DNA of 64,000 nucleotides, taken from positions 1 through 64,000 of the forward strand of contig NZ_MCIG01000009.1 of NCBI RefSeq assembly GCF_001705035.1, read 5' to 3'. Origin of the DNA: Curtobacterium sp. UCD-KPL2560. Its GTDB lineage: Bacteria > Actinomycetota > Actinomycetes > Actinomycetales > Microbacteriaceae. The translations under genes were made by a program, and so were the position numbers. Positions 10,117 to 58,089 of the stretch are shown piece by piece; within the stretch, counting starts at the first letter, position 1, and every line of letters begins with the position of its first letter. The notes beneath the pieces are model-generated. The model saw nothing but the letters and a program-made list of their open reading frames with translations, was not told the DNA's origin and made no database searches.

Positions 10117-10944
10117 ATGAGCACGGAGAACCCGCTGAACGACCCCACCACCGACCCGTTCGAGGTCGCCCGCGACGCCGCCGCCGTCATCGCTGACCGG
10201 TCCGGCATCGAGCGGCACGACATCGCCCTGACGCTCGGCTCCGGCTGGGGCAAGGCGGCCGACCTCATCGGCGAGACCGTGTCGACCATCGACGCTGCCG
10301 ACGTCCCCGGCTTCAGCGCGTCGGCGGTCCCCGGGCACTCCGGCACCGTCCGCTCGATCCGCCTCGCCGACGGGCGGCACGCGCTCGTGATCGGGGCGCG
10401 CACGCACTACTACGAGAACCACGGGGTGCGCCGCGTGGTGCACAGCGTCCGCACCGCGGCGGCCACGGGTGCCTCGGTGATGGTGCTCACCAACGGTGCC
10501 GGCGGCATCAAGGAGCACTGGAAGCCGGGCACCCCGGTGCTCATCAGCGACCACATCAACCTGACCGCGGACAGCCCGCTCGAGGGCGCCACGTTCATCG
10601 ACCTGACCGACCTGTACTCGGCGCGGCTCCGCGCGGTCGCGAAGTCGGTCGACCCGTCGCTCGACGAGGGCGTGTACACGCAGTTCCGCGGCCCGCACTA
10701 CGAGACCCCGGCCGAGGTGCAGATGGCCAAGGCGATCGGCGGGCACATCGTCGGCATGTCCACCGCGCTCGAGGCCATCGCCGCGCGCCAGGCGGGCATG
10801 GAGGTCCTCGGCTTCTCGCTCATCACGAACCTGGCCGCCGGCATCCAGAAGACGCCGCTGTCCCACACCGAGGTGCTCGAGGCCGGCAAGGAGGCCGAGC
10901 CGGTCATCGCCGACCTGCTCGCCCGGGTGGTGACCGCCCTGTGA
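10117..10944 (+). CDS. punA: purine nucleoside phosphorylase (PNP-I, trimeric type)
   Basis: A 275-residue enzyme that splits inosine or guanosine with phosphate. It shows the family's phosphate-binding LTLGSGWG, VPGHSGTV, the GARTHYYENHG stretch and the purine-site segment TQFRGPHYETPAE, followed by VGMSTALEAIAARQAGMEVLGFSLITNLAAG. Length and order match the trimeric PunA-type enzymes. The start has a TANNNT box 6 nt upstream. The stop overlaps the mutase start (GTGA), so the ribose-1-phosphate producer and its probable user are translated together. Confidence 0.93.
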   Translation: MSTENPLNDPTTDPFEVARDAAAVIADRSGIERHDIALTLGSGWGKAADLIGETVSTIDAADVPGFSASAVPGHSGTVRSIRLADGRHALVIGARTHYYENHGVRRVVHSVRTAAATGASVMVLTNGAGGIKEHWKPGTPVLISDHINLTADSPLEGATFIDLTDLYSARLRAVAKSVDPSLDEGVYTQFRGPHYETPAEVQMAKAIGGHIVGMSTALEAIAARQAGMEVLGFSLITNLAAGIQKTPLSHTEVLEAGKEAEPVIADLLARVVTAL

Positions 10945-12680
10945 GCCGGCACGACGGAGCATCGGACGGGTCCATCGCCGACGGCGACCTGACCGGCACC
11001 GAGGCCGGTACGGACGGGGCAGGGACCGGCTCCTCCGACGTCCTCGCGGTCGCGCGGGCCTGGGCCGACCAGGACCCCGACGACGAGACCCGTGGCGAGC
11101 TGCTCGCGGTGCTCGACCGCGCCACCTCGGGTGACGCCGACGCCGAGGCCGAGCTGCGTGCCCGGTTCGCCGGACGCCTGGCGTTCGGGACCGCCGGGCT
11201 GCGCGCCGAGCTCGGGTTCGGTCCACTCCGCATGAACCGCGTGGTCGTCTCGCAGGCCGCCGCTGGCCTCGCGCGCTTCCTCGTCGACACCGGCCGGGAC
11301 CGCAGCGTGGTCATCGGCTACGACGGCCGTGTGAACTCCGACGTGTTCGCCCGGGACTCCGCCGAGGTCATGCGCGGCCTCGGGCTCGCGGTCACCCTGC
11401 TGCCGTCGGCGCTCCCGACCCCGGTGCTGGCGTTCGCGGTCCGGCACCTCGGCGTCGGGGCGGGTGTCATGGTCACGGCGAGCCACAACCCGCCGCGGGA
11501 CAACGGCTACAAGGTGTACCTCGGCGGGGACGACGACGGCTCGCAGATCGTGCCGCCGGTGGACGGCGAGATCGCGGACGCGATCGCCGCCGTGGCGGCG
11601 ACGCCGCTCGGCGACCTGCGACGCGCGACGGACTACGTGACGGCGGGCCCGGACCTGGCCGCGGCGTACGTGGCCGCGACGGCCGCGATCGTACCGGCCC
11701 CGCGCCTCCCGGTCGATGCCCAGCCGAAGGTCGTGTACACGGCCATGCACGGGGTCGGGTGGGAGACCGCGCGCGCGGTCTTCGCCGCCGCCGGCTTCGC
11801 GGAGCCGGCGACCGTGCCGGAGCAGATCGAACCGGACGGTGCGTTCCCGACGGTCGCGTTCCCGAACCCGGAGGAGCCGGGGGCGATGGACCTGGCCGAG
11901 GCGCGGGGCGCCGCGGTCGGTGCGGACCTCGTCATCGCGAACGACCCCGACGCCGACCGCCTGGCGCTCGCGATCCCGACCGGCGACGGGTTCCGGCGTC
12001 TCTCCGGGAACGAGGTCGGGTGGCTGCTCGGCTGGCGTGCTGCCCAGCGCGCCGCCGAGGCCGGGACGGGCGGGACGCTCGCGGCGTCGATCGTGTCCTC
12101 GCCGGCACTCGCCCGCGTCGCGGCGGCGCACGGTCTGGAGTACCGCGACACCCTCACCGGCTTCAAGTGGGTGTCGCGCGTGCCCGGACTGGTGTTCGGG
12201 TACGAGGAGGCGCTCGGCTACCTCGTCGACCCGCATGTGGTGCGCGACAAGGACGGCATCTCGGCGGCGCTCGAACTCCTGTCGCTCGCCACGTCGCTCG
12301 CCGAGCAGGGCCGGACGATCGCCGACCAGCTCGATGCCTTCGCCGCCGAGTTCGGTGCCTTCGCCTCCGGGCAGGTCGCGACGCGGGTCGACGACCTCTC
12401 CCGCATCGGCGAGGTCATGGCGGCCCTGCGTTCGAGCGCGCCGACGTCGCTCGGGGGCCGCGCCGTGCAGCGGGTCACGGACTACGACGCGGGGGTCGAG
12501 GGCTTCCCGCCGTCCGACATCCTGCGGTACGACCTCGACGGGGGCGCACGCGTCATCGTGCGTCCGAGCGGGACGGAGCCGAAGGTCAAGGTGTACATCG
12601 ACACCGTCGCGGAGTCCTCGGCCGAGGCGCAGGCCCTCGTCGACGCCATCGCCGCGGACGTGCGCCCGCTGGTGTCGTAG
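10941..12680 (+). CDS. phospho-sugar mutase (phosphopentomutase/phosphomannomutase/phosphoglucomutase family)
   Basis: A 579-residue alpha-D-phosphohexomutase. The phosphoserine loop TASHNPPRDNGYKVY, the metal loop DPDADR and the sugar-binding GYEEALGYLVDPHVVRDKDGIS are all present, and the C-terminal phosphate-binding RPSGTEPKVKVY is intact. The first 35 or so residues are a low-complexity Gly/Asp/Thr tail. The four-base overlap with the purine nucleoside phosphorylase gene suggests its substrate is (deoxy)ribose-1-phosphate, converted to the 5-phosphate. No deoB-type gene is present in the window, in line with this. Specificity for pentose rather than hexose phosphate is inferred from context only. 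Confidence 0.88.
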   Translation: MSRHDGASDGSIADGDLTGTEAGTDGAGTGSSDVLAVARAWADQDPDDETRGELLAVLDRATSGDADAEAELRARFAGRLAFGTAGLRAELGFGPLRMNRVVVSQAAAGLARFLVDTGRDRSVVIGYDGRVNSDVFARDSAEVMRGLGLAVTLLPSALPTPVLAFAVRHLGVGAGVMVTASHNPPRDNGYKVYLGGDDDGSQIVPPVDGEIADAIAAVAATPLGDLRRATDYVTAGPDLAAAYVAATAAIVPAPRLPVDAQPKVVYTAMHGVGWETARAVFAAAGFAEPATVPEQIEPDGAFPTVAFPNPEEPGAMDLAEARGAAVGADLVIANDPDADRLALAIPTGDGFRRLSGNEVGWLLGWRAAQRAAEAGTGGTLAASIVSSPALARVAAAHGLEYRDTLTGFKWVSRVPGLVFGYEEALGYLVDPHVVRDKDGISAALELLSLATSLAEQGRTIADQLDAFAAEFGAFASGQVATRVDDLSRIGEVMAALRSSAPTSLGGRAVQRVTDYDAGVEGFPPSDILRYDLDGGARVIVRPSGTEPKVKVYIDTVAESSAEAQALVDAIAADVRPLVS

Positions 12681-12794: not shown

Positions 12795-12856
12795 CGCACA
12801 ACGGAAAGCACGTCGCACCACGCGATCGCGTGGTGCGACGTGCTTTCCGTTGTGCG
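12795..12856. repeat. 62-bp perfect palindrome
   Basis: Two 31-base arms are exact reverse complements with no spacer, centred between 12825 and 12826 on CGATCG. Such a structure could extrude as a cruciform or form a long RNA hairpin. Confidence 0.9.
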
Positions 12857-12874
12857 CGAGCACGTCGCACCACG
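12795..12874. repeat. left 80-bp terminal inverted repeat
   Basis: Aligned without gaps to the reverse complement of 13987-14066, I count 62 of 80 identical bases. It contains three copies of the 15-mer GCACGTCGCACCACG (12808-12822 direct, 12829-12843 inverted, 12860-12874 direct). The outer part is itself a 62-bp perfect palindrome. Confidence 0.85.
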
Positions 12875-13027
12875 GTGCGGAGGCGCGCGGCGGCGCCGGC
12901 GCGCGCCGCTGACGCGCGCCGCGCGCCCGCGTCGCACGTTCCTCCACAGAGCGGGAGGACTGAGCAGCTCTCCACAGCTCGGCCGCCGCGCGGTCGAGAA
13001 CGTCGGACGTCGGTCACCGTTGCGGTC

Positions 13028-13981
13028 ATGGCCAGGTTGGAGATCGTCGTCGGCGGTGGTGCGGACCCGAGTGGGAGGCGCGGCCGTGACCTCCGCGACC
13101 GCGCGCTCCGGGGTGAGCTCGTCCGGCTCGCACCGGGCCGGTTCGTCGACGCCGACGAGTGGCGACGAGCGAACCCCGGCGAACGGCACATCGCCCGCAT
13201 CAAGGCCGTCCACGATCTGCTCGCCCCGCGGCTCGTCGTGTCGCACGCATCAGCGGCAGCACTCCACGGCCTGCCGTGGCCGGGGGAGTTCCCGGTCGCG
13301 GTCGAGGTGCTCGACCCCCTGCGCACCACCGGGCAGACGCTCCGCACGGTCCACAAGCGTGCCGGAGCCGGACGGCGGTTCCGCACGGACTCGATGATCG
13401 CGAACGGGCGCTCGCTCACCGACCGGGCGAGCACGGTCGCCGACCTCGCCGTCGCCTACCCGATCCGGACGAGTGTGCCGGCGCTCGACGTCGCCCTGGC
13501 CGCCGGGACCGACCGGGCGGACGTCCTCGCCGCGCTCGACGCCGCCGGGTCGGTGCAGTTCCGTGCCCGCGCGGAGCGTGCGATCGCGCTGGCGGACGGG
13601 CGGTCGGGGTCGCCGGGGGAGTCGGTGGCGCGGGTCGCGCTCGACGAGGTCGGTGCGCCGGAGCCGGAACTGCAGCACCGGTTCGACGACGTCGACGGGC
13701 TCATCGGCGTCGTCGACTTCTGGTTCCCGGAGCAGGGCGTCGTCCTGGAGTTCGACGGGCGCGTGAAGTACACCGACCCGTCGTTGCGCCGAGCCGGGCA
13801 GACCGCGGCCGACGTGGTGGTCGCCGAGAAGCACCGGGAGGACCGGATCCGTCGGCGTCCCGAGGTGCACGGCTTCGGTCGCATCGGCTTCGCGGAGACC
13901 GACGACACCGAGCGCCTCCGCGACGTCCTGCGCGTGCTCGGGGTGCCCACGACCCGGCGACGCTTCACGACCGTGCGGTGA
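13028..13981 (+). CDS. putative AbiEi-like/DUF559-like (restriction-endonuclease-fold) protein
   Basis: A 317-residue protein. The N-terminal half resembles the AbiEi-type antitoxin-like family of actinobacteria: LVRLAPGRFVDADEW, VVSHASAAALHGLPWPG, then RTVHKRAGAG. The C-terminal part (about residues 220-290) resembles the DUF559/Vsr-like nuclease fold: VVDFWFPEQGVVLEFDGRVKY, with Asp, Glu and Lys spaced as in PD-(D/E)XK active sites. I chose the ATG at 13028 because homology-like sequence begins right after it; an open frame extends upstream without coding character. There is no neighbouring toxin gene, so a type IV toxin-antitoxin role is not supported. The gene stands alone between inverted repeats. 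Nuclease activity is inferred. Confidence 0.65.
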   Translation: MARLEIVVGGGADPSGRRGRDLRDRALRGELVRLAPGRFVDADEWRRANPGERHIARIKAVHDLLAPRLVVSHASAAALHGLPWPGEFPVAVEVLDPLRTTGQTLRTVHKRAGAGRRFRTDSMIANGRSLTDRASTVADLAVAYPIRTSVPALDVALAAGTDRADVLAALDAAGSVQFRARAERAIALADGRSGSPGESVARVALDEVGAPEPELQHRFDDVDGLIGVVDFWFPEQGVVLEFDGRVKYTDPSLRRAGQTAADVVVAEKHREDRIRRRPEVHGFGRIGFAETDDTERLRDVLRVLGVPTTRRRFTTVR

Positions 13982-13986
13982 CACGA

Positions 13987-14066
13987 CATGGTGCGACGTG
14001 CCCCCGAACAAGCAGGAGCACGTCGCGCCACGGGAAGCCGTGGTGCGACGTGCTCCGGGTTGTGCG
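13987..14066. repeat. right 80-bp terminal inverted repeat
   Basis: Inverted partner of 12795-12874. Its three half-sites are at 13987-14001 (inverted, one mismatch), 14018-14032 (direct, one mismatch) and 14039-14053 (inverted, exact). It starts 5 bp after the nuclease-like gene's stop. Confidence 0.85.
14015..14056. terminator. hairpin inside the right TIR, possible bidirectional terminator
   Basis: Arms of 19 nt with one G-T pair and a GAAG loop. It lies between the convergent nuclease-like and carboxylase genes and could end transcription from both sides. Confidence 0.5.
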
Positions 14067-14138
14067 AGGGCCACCAGCGCCGCGCGAGCCAGCGCCGCGC
14101 GACGCGCGCGACGCGCGCGAGCGCGCGGCAGCGCCGCG

Positions 14139-15911
14139 CTACGCCAGCTCGAGCAGCACGTGCCCGGACGACACCGTCTGGCCGACGGGGGCGTTCAGCC
14201 CGGTCACGACGCCGTCGCGCGTGGCCTGCACGGGCTGTTCCATCTTCATGGCCTCGAGGACGACGAGCAGGTCGCCCTTCACCACGGTGTCACCCTCGGC
14301 GACCGCGACCTTGACCACGGTGGCCTGCATCGGCGAGGTCACCGAACCGGACGAGGCGAGCCCGCCCTTCACGGCCGACGACCGGCGCTTCGGGGGAGCC
14401 GAGGGCCCCGCCGGACGACGACCGGCCACGGACCCGCCGCCGACGATCGACGGCATCGTGACCTCGATGCGCTTGCCCTGCACCTCGACGACCACGCTCT
14501 CGCGGGCGGCCGGTTCGGGCAGCTCCTCGGTCGCGCCGCTCCACGCGGGGATGTCGTTCTGGAAGTCGGTCTCGATCCACTGCGTGTAGATGCTGAACGG
14601 CTCGTCGTCCGACGTGGCGAACGCCGGGTCGGAGACGACCGCGCGGTGGAAGGGGAGCACGGTCGGCAGCCCGGTGACCTCGAACTCGGCGAGGGCGCGA
14701 CGGGAGCGCTCGAGCGCCTCCTCGCGCGTCGCACCGGTGACGATGAGCTTCGCGAGCATCGAGTCGAACGAGCCGGAGACGACGTCGCCGGACACGACAC
14801 CCGAGTCGACGCGCACGCCGGGGCCGGACGGGGCGTGGAAGGTGTGCACGGGGCCGGGAGCGGGGAAGAAGTTGCGCCCCGCGTCCTCGCCGTTGATGCG
14901 GAACTCGAACGAGTGGCCGCGCGGCTCGGGGTCGGCGTAGTCGAGCGTGCCGCCCTCGGCGATGCGGAACTGCTCGCGCACGAGGTCGATGCCGGTGACC
15001 TCTTCCGAGACGCAGTGCTCGACCTGCAGGCGGGTGTTCACCTCGAGGAAGGACACGGTGCCGTCGGCGCCGATGAGGAACTCGCACGTGCCGGCCCCGA
15101 CGTAGCCGACCTCGCGGAGGATCGCCTTCGACGACTCGTACAGCCGCTCGGTCTGTGCGTCCGTCAGGTAGGGGGCCGGGGCCTCCTCGACGAGCTTCTG
15201 GTGCCGGCGCTGCAGCGAGCAGTCGCGCGTCGACACGACGAGGACGTTGCCGTGCTCGTCGGCGAGGCACTGGGTCTCGACGTGACGCGGCTTGTCGAGG
15301 TACTTCTCGACGAAGCACTCGCCCCGGCCGAACGCGGCGATCGCCTCGCGCGTCGCCGAGTCGAAGAGCTCCGGGATCGACTCGCGCGTGCGGGCGACCT
15401 TCAGTCCGCGACCGCCGCCACCGAAGGCTGCCTTGATCGCGACGGGGAGGCCGACCTCGTCGGCGAACGCGACGACCTCGGACACGTCCTGCACGGGCTC
15501 GATCGTGCCCGGGGCGAGGGGTGCGCCGACCTTCTCGGCCACGTGCCGCGCGGAGACCTTGTCGCCGAGGCGCTCGATCGACTCCGGCGACGGGCCGATC
15601 CAGACGAGCCCGGCGTCGATGACGGCGCGGGCGAAGTCGGCGTTCTCGGCGAGGAACCCGTAGCCCGGGTGCACGGCGTCGGCGCCGGAGCGACGGGCCA
15701 CCGAGATGATCTTGTCGATGACGAGGTAGGTGTCAGCGCTCGTGGTGCCGTTCAGCGCGTAGGCCTCGTCGGCGAGGCGGGCGTGGAGGGCGTCACGGTC
15801 CTGGTCGGCGTAGACCGCGACCGACGCCTTGCCCGCGTCGCGGGCCGCGCGGATGATGCGGACGGCGATCTCGCCGCGGTTCGCGATGAGGACCTTGCTG
15901 ATACGGGGCAT
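14139..15911 (-). CDS. accA: acyl-CoA carboxylase alpha chain (biotin carboxylase plus biotin carrier)
   Basis: A 590-residue fusion. Residues 1 to about 450 are the biotin carboxylase: N-terminal [21 protein letters not shown]-binding [30 protein letters not shown] linker rich in Ala and Pro leads to the biotin carrier domain (about 520-590) with the biotinyl lysine in [10 protein letters not shown]. In actinobacteria this subunit works with beta and epsilon chains to make malonyl-CoA or methylmalonyl-CoA; those chains lie at 21802-23689. The symbol follows actinobacterial use (AccA3 type), not the E. coli AccA carboxyltransferase. A TAGGCT box lies 8 nt upstream of the ATG. Confidence 0.93.
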
Positions 15912-16007: not shown

Positions 16008-16805
16008 CTACGCCGACCACAGCTCGTGCCAGGCGACGCCGAAGCCCCGGAGCAGCATCGCGCGCAGGACCGGCAGCGAGAGCCCGACCACGGCGGACGG
16101 GGCACCGTCGATCCGCGAGATGTAGGCGGCCGCCCGCCCGTCGATCGTGAAGGCACCCGCGACCTCGAGGGGTTCGCCCGTCGCGACGTACGCGTCGACC
16201 TCGTCGAGCGACACGTCGTCGGCGAAGGTCAGCACCGCGCTGTCCACCGCCACCACGTGGTCGCCGGCGGCCACCAGCGTCGACCCGCCGGGCGCGACGT
16301 CGCCCAGGTGGCCGGCCGTGCCGAGCGGCCCGCCGCCCGACGCGTCCACCTGTCGGACGGGAGGCACGGTGCCGGCCCGCCCCGCGCCTCCCGTCCGTCC
16401 GCTGGCCGGGTCGGCGACCCGGTCCGCCCGACGGTCCACGACGCAGTGCCCGCTCCACAGGGTGCCGCCGCCGGCGGCGAGCATCTGCCGCCAGCGCTCA
16501 CGGGCGACCGCGGGCTCGTGGGGCTTGCCGTACAGGACCCCGTCCACCTCGAACGCGGAGTCGCCACCGAACACGAACCCGTCCACGGGCGCGCCGGCCA
16601 CCGTGCCGTCGGCGACCGCACCGGCCTTGGCGACCGCGAGCATCGCGACGAGCTCCGGGCCGGTCAGCGGTCGGCCGAGCGCGTCCTCGGCGGCGGCGAC
16701 CGCGGCGTCCTCGTCGACGCCCGGGGCGACGAGCACCGGCTCGATCCCGGTCTGGGCCAGGAGCGCACGACGGGCGGGGGAGGTACTCGCGAGGTACAGA
16801 CGCAT
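16008..16805 (-). CDS. maf: Maf-family nucleoside triphosphate pyrophosphatase with palindrome-derived insertion
   Basis: A 265-residue Maf protein; relatives are usually about 200 residues. It hydrolyses non-canonical or modified nucleotides. Family signatures: N-terminal ASTSPARRALL, FVFGGDSAFEVDG with the acidic catalytic residue, LTFADDVSLDEVDAYVATGEP and the C-terminal VVGLSLPVL. Between GHCVVDRR and AVLTFADD there are about 50 more residues than expected. Fifteen of these (RTGGAGRAGTVPPVR) are encoded by a 44-bp palindromic element at 16354-16397 that also occurs in intergenic DNA of this window. The reading frame is intact and both flanking halves are conserved, so the protein may still fold with a surface loop. 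Confidence 0.85.
   Translation of the reverse strand: MRLYLASTSPARRALLAQTGIEPVLVAPGVDEDAAVAAAEDALGRPLTGPELVAMLAVAKAGAVADGTVAGAPVDGFVFGGDSAFEVDGVLYGKPHEPAVARERWRQMLAAGGGTLWSGHCVVDRRADRVADPASGRTGGAGRAGTVPPVRQVDASGGGPLGTAGHLGDVAPGGSTLVAAGDHVVAVDSAVLTFADDVSLDEVDAYVATGEPLEVAGAFTIDGRAAAYISRIDGAPSAVVGLSLPVLRAMLLRGFGVAWHELWSA
16354..16397. repeat. palindromic element (family B) inside maf
   Basis: 12-bp perfect arms CGGACGGGAGGC and GCCTCCCGTCCG, the same arms as the copy at 57982-58026. Read on the minus strand it is in frame with maf. Confidence 0.85.
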
Positions 16806-49571: not shown

Positions 49572-49590
49572 CCACCGGGCGACCGCTCGA

Positions 49591-49644
49591 CGCACACGGG
49601 GACGGCCCCGGTTCCGCGAGGAGCCGGGGCCGTCCCCGTGTGCG
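49591..49644. terminator. strong bidirectional terminator
   Basis: 21-bp perfect arms (49591-49611 and 49624-49644) with a 12-nt loop, 19 nt after the stop of the six-repeat protein gene. Confidence 0.85.
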
Positions 49645-49743
49645 TGGCGGTGTCCGGTCGCCCGTTGCGGTGCCGGCCCGTCCGCCCGTGACGGTGTCGG
49701 TGGAGCCGCGGCCGCGGCCTTCGCCGCGGGGTGTGGAGTGGGT

Positions 49744-57981: not shown

Positions 57982-58026
57982 CGGACGGGAGGCACGGTGG
58001 CGGCCCGGTGTCGCGCCTCCCGTCCG
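57982..58026. repeat. palindromic element B, copy 1 of tandem pair
   Basis: 12-bp perfect arms CGGACGGGAGGC and GCCTCCCGTCCG with a 21-nt loop. Confidence 0.9.
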
Positions 58027-58044
58027 GTGGGTGGTCGCCACCAC

Positions 58045-58089
58045 CGGACGGGAGGCACGGTGCCGGACCGGTGTCGCGCCTCCCGGCCG
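58045..58089. repeat. palindromic element B, copy 2 of tandem pair
   Basis: Same left arm; right arm GCCTCCCGGCCG with one G-T-compatible change. It lies 63 bp after copy 1 and overlaps another inverted repeat at 58087-58114 (10-bp arms). Confidence 0.88.

Follow-up and report, generated by a model that had tools for sequence, protein, structure and literature searches.

A nuclease-like gene bracketed by palindromes at the manB-accC site of Curtobacterium: a candidate REP-like cassette

A single gene of Curtobacterium sp. UCD-KPL2560 lies between two 80-bp repeats that mirror one another. The locus raises the question of whether these repeats are the ends of a mobile or domesticated unit, as an earlier note made from the sequence alone had proposed, or REP-like palindromes that flank the gene by accident, which the same note gave as its alternative. 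The stretch of DNA analyzed here (the window; 64,000 nucleotides) belongs to an assembly of 3,480,487 bases in 156 contigs, referred to below as genome G000; G043 is a second genome of the same species.

The bracketed gene and its product

In a gapless alignment, the left repeat (12795-12874) is identical at 62 of 80 bp to the right repeat (13987-14066) read in reverse complement, just as the earlier note had counted. The three mirrored 15-mer half-sites that it described in each repeat are also present. The 15-mer GCACGTCGCACCACG occurs exactly at 12808 and 12860 on the plus strand and at 12829 and 14039 on the minus strand, and with one mismatch at 13987 (minus) and 14018 (plus); the spacings are 21 and 31 bp, and the order is mirrored between the left and right repeats. 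Two of the half-sites on the left fall within a palindrome without strand assignment (12795-12856) that has perfect 31-bp arms (62 bp in all) and ends in CGCACAAC...GTTGTGCG. Its counterpart on the right (14000-14071, likewise unstranded) is imperfect. We refer to both as class A palindromes. The third half-sites, at 12860-12874 (plus strand) and 13987-14001 (minus strand), lie on the gene side of each palindrome and are species-specific. The symmetry exceeds chance, as had been supposed: the best palindrome scores in the two intergenic flanks are 31 (left) and 19 (right), compared with 16 and 12 in 200 dinucleotide shuffles of the same flanks. Six palindromes scoring at least 15 were found in the window, including the two that flank the gene.

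The emphasis originally placed on the half-sites has not survived comparison with relatives. A scan of 15 class A loci showed clear triple half-sites in G000 and G043 only, with a weak trace in genome G056, and we therefore dropped them as a defining feature. The class A relatives have in common a single palindrome, about 60 bp long, to either side of the gene, at positions conserved in the 15 class A genomes; the mirrored triple half-sites are a local elaboration.

A single gene does lie between the repeats (13028-13981, plus strand), and its open reading frame encodes 317 amino acids. To its left is a phosphosugar mutase gene (10941-12680, plus strand), which we take to be manB by general resemblance rather than by a family search, and to its right, in convergent orientation, a biotin carboxylase gene (14139-15911, minus strand), presumably accC, again by general resemblance. 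Both neighbors were predicted as ORFs and located in relatives by tblastn, and they form the conserved borders of the exchanged block discussed below.

The protein itself has no match to Pfam or NCBIfam at E up to 1 and only a weak match to a PADLOC AbiEi model (E 0.0045). An AlphaFold2 model (mean pLDDT 92.5) was compared with solved structures. The front part (residues 1-190; 13028-13597, plus strand) has an AbiEi-antitoxin-like fold with a winged helix at its N-terminus, and residues 193-307 (13604-13948, plus strand) resemble a Vsr endonuclease domain, a reading that conservation in 69 family sequences also favors. Residues 2-190 match the AbiEi antitoxin 6y8q_A with a VIA Z of 7.9 (rmsd 7.0 over 170 residues), and residues 193-307 match the Vsr endonuclease 1cw0_A with a Z of 7.6 (rmsd 2.9 over 105 residues), both below the Z of at least 8 that is treated as clearly meaningful in VIA, lower values being called common. 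Foldseek gave an E of 2.4e-4 for the AbiEi-like part and weak matches to Vsr chains (E 2.6-3.1); TnsA was a remote VIA match at a Z of 5.2 only. A sequence-profile search of solved structures returned only weak matches to unrelated proteins, and a PHROGs search found no named family. Across the family, one PADLOC AbiEi model fits 57 of 69 members at E up to 0.1; at the same limit the Pfam matches are AbiEi_4 (15/69), DUF559 (2/69, the best at E 3.8e-9) and REase_MTES_1575 (1/69). These matches agree with the AbiEi-like N-terminus and the DUF559/Vsr-like C-terminus that had been read from the sequence. No transposase model matches the protein or appears among the Pfam matches of the 69 members, in keeping with the earlier statement that the enzyme is not a known transposase.

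Residues E198, D230 and E241 are invariant among the 69 sequences, and D243 and K247 are nearly so; from the fold and these conserved residues we predict that the Vsr-like domain functions as a nuclease. The dN/dS ratios of 0.15-0.31 in 8 within-class pairs point to a protein family under purifying selection. Searches of 72,556 plasmid records (at E up to 1e-8) and of 50,697 phage records (at E up to 1e-4) found no relatives, so that neither plasmid nor phage carriage was detected at the limits used.

Palindrome class, protein class and exchange at the manB-accC site

The bracket seen in the window recurs around the protein family. In 300-bp windows flanking 99 non-redundant loci of the family, a strong palindrome (score of at least 15) was present in 95 of 198 flank windows, compared with 20 of 1121 control windows, a difference that excludes chance flanking. 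The accidental association offered as an alternative in the earlier note therefore fails, although its description of the palindromes as REP-like holds (see below). At this score 32 of the 99 loci have a palindrome in both flanks, 31 in one and 36 in neither, and at the manB site 42 of 54 loci have palindromes on both sides (score of at least 11), a count that includes the single class F locus, in genome G051, where the pair is unmatched. For class B the automatic search called a two-sided bracket at just 1 of 8 loci, although inspection by eye shows right partners in G025, G001 and G033.

Other protein clades are accompanied by quite different palindromes, for example ATCGCGCCCCG, GGACACAGCACCG, GAACCACGAATCCGACATCGAACC and CACCGGTGTTCG, and clades A to E all occupy one site, between manB and accC. 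Of 30 genomes searched that lack a class A gene, 28 hold another class at this site; a hand tally of these 28 loci at a score of at least 14 found palindromes on both sides in 18, on one side in 9 and on neither in 1. Across manB-site loci, the left and right palindromes match one another with a median score of 25 within a locus, compared with a median of 6 between classes. Palindrome similarity declines with protein distance (partial Mantel -0.44 over 42 loci, the most extreme of 999 permutations being -0.17), and shows little relation to manB distance in the same loci (partial Mantel -0.035, with 236 of 999 permutations as low). The link is strongest for residues 1-60 of the protein. The pairing analysis covered 54 of the 60 genus genomes, 42 of them in the Mantel test. 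Classes were assigned by best tblastn match; for genome G023 the two flanking palindromes were the sole basis for class D. The statistics exclude G026, which holds none of the classes at this site. G039, with no manB on the contig, is not on the tree. These observations demonstrate that palindrome class goes with the protein and not with the species.

A manB tree of 57 genomes requires 31 changes of class at the site, where shuffled assignments need a mean of 33.9 changes and 102 of 1000 shuffles need as few. In 18 of 54 cases the nearest manB neighbor has the same class, with 11.8 expected by chance and 70 of 1000 shuffles as high. Class is thus nearly independent, though perhaps not entirely so, of the species tree as represented by manB, one neighboring gene that may itself have recombined. 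Three species pairs whose manB genes are 95.1% identical encode proteins at the site that are only 43-49% identical. Aligned species of different class differ in everything between manB and accC; in the three such pairs aligned, the sequences diverge at the manB stop codon or shortly beyond it and become similar again where accC ends. Conversely, some species of the same class share a gene far more similar than its neighbor: pS is 0.087 for the gene and 0.353 for manB between G028 and G054, and 0.083 and 0.358 between G003 and G005. In all, gene pS is less than half of manB pS in only 11 of 306 same-class pairs, one of which is the same-species pair. In G003-G005 and G001-G033 the stretch of high identity starts just outside the left palindrome, and its end lies in the right palindrome's outer arm or immediately beyond; for G028-G054 the start may fall in the last 60 bp of manB. 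The sequence comparisons thus indicate that species exchange the gene together with its two palindromes, as one block, at a single site.

To this extent the proposal that the repeats are the ends of a mobile or domesticated unit is upheld: a block is exchanged, and palindrome class follows protein. The data do not, however, support a classical mobile element, since all 17 class A genes found are at the accC site (for 16 of them the sequence available also includes manB) and no second match above 50% identity within any genome was present among the matches listed. Sites without the gene do exist. The manB-accC site of G041 is empty, and in G036 the gene and right palindrome are lost, and what remains between manB and accC is the left palindrome with part of the gene leader. 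The G036 locus looks like an ordinary deletion and not an excision; this genome has no full-frame class A palindromes (frame defined below). No clean empty site was found in which a target-site duplication could be sought.

Six loci from records not named Curtobacterium were inspected for palindromes. Matched palindromes lie on both sides of the gene in one Frigoribacterium locus (L138) and one Rhodococcus locus (L178), and on one side in a further Frigoribacterium locus (L133) and in locus L140. A Herbiconiux locus (L180) has a weaker pair, and a Yonghaparkia locus (L181) has no palindrome near the gene. The pairs at L138 and L178 suggest that the association of gene and palindrome extends beyond Curtobacterium.

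Paralogs of class G are found at a second locus (L064, L075, L079, L086, L087 and L098), accompanied by GGTGCGAGGTT palindromes; the one at L064 is beside a LacI-like ORF. Where both sides were found, the right palindrome follows the gene at a distance of about 30 bp, and other genes intervene before the left one, 1.4-1.6 kb upstream.

Dispersed copies of the palindromes

The class A palindromes are REP-like and are not confined to the gene. With at most one mismatch, GCACGTCGCACCACG occurs 97 times in G000, 109 times in G043 and 41 times in G056, compared with 0-13 times in the other 57 genomes, near the level of the reversed control. The full frame, GCACAAC-N44..48-GTTGTGC, has 32 copies in G000 and is present in 45 of the 60 genus genomes, compared with at most 1 per strand for its reversed control. 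The inner arm sequence varies by species, with pairing retained. The fraction of arm positions paired is 0.855 in 133 dispersed copies and 0.767 (maximum 0.783) in 100 within-genome arm shuffles, for a subset (14 of 16 copies in G017, 29 of 45 in G057, 14 of 22 in G039, 12 of 14 in G020, 30 of 35 in G028, 17 of 25 in G007 and 17 of 32 in G000) that leaves out gene-flanking copies, some near-duplicates in arrays and all of G043. When dispersed copies of seven class A genomes were compared with flanking pairs, the pair of their own genome ranked 1, 2, 1, 3, 1, 2 and 3 of 15, ranks that are not independent because close relatives share subtypes.

Locations were tallied for 32 palindromes from 20 chosen regions of G043, several of them in one array, by using a crude ORF caller: convergent gene pairs flank 23 and tandem pairs 7, 1 falls within a gene and 1 at an edge, and no copy separates divergent genes. 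The bracket around this protein family recurs, but the repeats are not gene-specific, as dozens of copies lie away from the gene and, in this sample, at gene 3' ends. No T4 tract was found within 15 nt of either end in 60 full-frame copies, and neither GTAG nor CTAC stands at the palindrome foot in any of 60 class A copies. CGTC or GACG is near the foot in 12 of 60 full-frame copies, a raw count without an enrichment control.

In two of the three classes tested, A and C, genomes with the gene resident hold more copies of its palindrome. The raw median number of class A palindromes is 25 in the 17 genomes with a class A gene and 3 in the 42 without, and the difference persists after the two flanking copies are subtracted (p 5.5e-7). 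For class C the medians are 5.5 and 0 (16 and 43 genomes, p 6.5e-4), and for class D they are 2 and 0 (10 and 49 genomes), which is not significant (p 0.068). A few genomes have many class A palindromes without a class A gene: G010, which holds a class D gene, has 27, G031 has 21 and G004 has 17. These fit an interpretation as relics of an earlier occupant, and they also count against a strict link between gene and copy number.

No new palindrome insertion was caught between G000 and G043: of 20 G000 regions, 12 could be matched to a G043 counterpart, and all 12 have half-sites in both genomes. One palindrome array differs, with 12 half-sites in G043 (L054) and 7 in G000 (L234), apparently by tandem duplication, a change that ordinary duplication can produce. 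The units of array L054 are roughly 140-210 bp among the matches listed. One region with two palindromes was compared with relatives; among the matches listed, 10 of the 11 relatives with this gap available have no class A palindrome there, the gap content differs, and no clean junction was seen.

Other arrangements of palindromes were observed in passing. At L062 (1690-2630), G000 and G043 carry a different reading frame between two class A palindromes, and the gap varies among relatives. A second dispersed family, GGACGGGAGGC...GCCTCCCGTCC, is found in the window at 16337-16414 and 58015-58056 and also at L043, L051, L054, L057 and L060. The copy at 16337-16414 sits in a Maf-like ORF (16008-16805, minus strand, 265 aa), which we take to be longer than usual, as if the palindrome had inserted in frame. 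An isolated strong palindrome of a third sequence type (score 23) lies at 49590-49645 of the window.

Interpretation and comparison with known systems

We favor, at a probability of roughly 60%, the view that gene and repeats form a cassette that works like a REPtron with an unrelated enzyme, a non-HUH nuclease. It would be like a REPtron without being one, since the anatomy fits and the HUH transposase, the GTAG tag and vertical inheritance do not. That the enzyme acts on its palindromes is suggested by the matching of protein and palindrome classes, by the nuclease-like fold and by the residues conserved in it. In the mechanism we envisage, the protein would bind its cognate palindrome via the winged-helix part, probably as a hairpin or cruciform, and the Vsr-like domain would cut or nick it. 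Repair or replication at the cut could then copy the palindrome to new intergenic sites, and the same process may help the cassette to replace rival cassettes at the home site.

Several other explanations were considered. The palindromes could have a structural role at the 3' ends of genes, as terminators, insulators or stabilizers of mRNA, and be spread by some other process, and the protein could be a defense or immunity gene under diversifying selection that moves by ordinary homologous recombination, the palindromes traveling along. We consider this unlikely. In its favor, the palindromes are at gene 3' ends, mostly convergent ones, the replaced block spans stop codon to stop codon in the three aligned pairs, as recombination between conserved neighbors gives, and the AbiEi models come from a defense library (PADLOC). 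Against it, a generic terminator needs no palindrome sequence that tracks the class of the protein, and palindrome number depends on the resident gene class for A and C. Intrinsic terminators in particular are disfavored, with T4 tracts missing from all 60 full-frame copies. A different role in defense, that of an abortive-infection nuclease using the dispersed palindromes as targets or self-markers, for example by cutting DNA with or without its palindrome, would suit the AbiEi-like and Vsr-like architecture and also the swapping of classes between close species, a pattern known for defense alleles. We think it improbable, given the lack of matches in the plasmid and phage records at the limits used and neighbors at the manB site that are manB and accC and not an AbiEii or methyltransferase gene.

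The protein might also be a transcriptional regulator, with its AbiEi-like winged helix binding dispersed palindromes as operators. AbiEi antitoxins are DNA-binding autoregulators, and one palindrome does lie upstream of the gene. Yet none of the 32 dispersed copies located is between divergent genes and 23 are between convergent ones, so that operators are disfavored; an operator would not need arms as long as 27-31 bp, and the conserved nuclease-like residues would be left unexplained. We give this very little credence. Ordinary REPs moved by a RAYT (Y1 HUH) transposase, and flanking the gene by chance, would share the REP-like dispersal and 3' location seen here, but the present data contradict this explanation and we reject it: Y1_Tnp (PF01797) was found in none of the 60 genus genomes by a search that was positive in 5 of 14 control genomes, the GTAG/CTAC foot is missing from all 60 copies, and flanking is well beyond chance.

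Taken further, the REPtron-like cassette could represent a second, independently evolved REP system, in which a Vsr-like nuclease with an AbiEi-like winged helix recognizes and copies its own palindromes, rival cassettes compete for one home site across the genus, and the palindromes of past occupants form a fossil record. We put the chances of this extended reading at about even. If it is correct, REP-like systems arose more than once, here with a cognate enzyme from a different superfamily, and a function would be assigned to an actinobacterial AbiEi/DUF559-like protein family of so far obscure role. Since each protein class has a matching palindrome class and the two are swapped as one, a small set of proteins and oligonucleotides would allow specificity to be tested directly. 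No earlier report linking DUF559, Vsr or AbiEi proteins to REP-like repeats was present in the titles and abstract openings listed by the searches, which excluded preprints and included few subscription papers.

Of the known single-gene units, an insertion sequence with terminal inverted repeats resembles the cassette in having one gene between inverted repeats, exchanged as a block, but here both ends are palindromes in their own right, the protein matches no transposase model, and class A was found at a single site. The AbiE type IV toxin-antitoxin systems share the AbiEi fold (residues 2-190, 6y8q_A) and the PADLOC AbiEi matches; they differ in that no AbiEii toxin gene adjoins at the manB site and the AbiEi-like part is here fused to a nuclease-like domain. 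Similarly, the Vsr mismatch endonuclease and DUF559 proteins share the fold of residues 193-307 (1cw0_A) and the DUF559 match in 2 of 69 members, but are remote in sequence, and the protein described here is bracketed by palindromes and has no methyltransferase neighbor at the manB site.

REP palindromes are widespread in bacteria, and according to one survey one of their two super-families is apparently without a dedicated transposase (PMC3733652). The CGTC-tagged REPs are said to lack one (Di Nocera 2013); they share with the present family a dispersed distribution of palindromes and differ in that a cognate gene is proposed here, and in that CGTC or GACG is near the foot in 12 of 60 copies by the raw count given above. 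The closest parallel is the REPtron, a RAYT gene with its REPs. It too is a chromosomal gene flanked by palindromes, with many copies elsewhere and more of them where the gene is present (PMC3733652, PMC8266576, PMC8049555); in both systems the palindromes are mostly between convergent or tandem genes, and plasmid copies were not found. In contrast to the RAYT, a Y1 HUH transposase (PF01797) found in 0 of 60 genus genomes, the protein here is AbiEi-Vsr-like; the palindromes carry no GTAG tag (0/60 class A copies) and are about 60 bp long rather than the 20-40 bp given for REPs (PMC3733652). RAYTs are described as mainly vertically inherited (PMC8049555), whereas the cassette described here is swapped between species together with its repeats.
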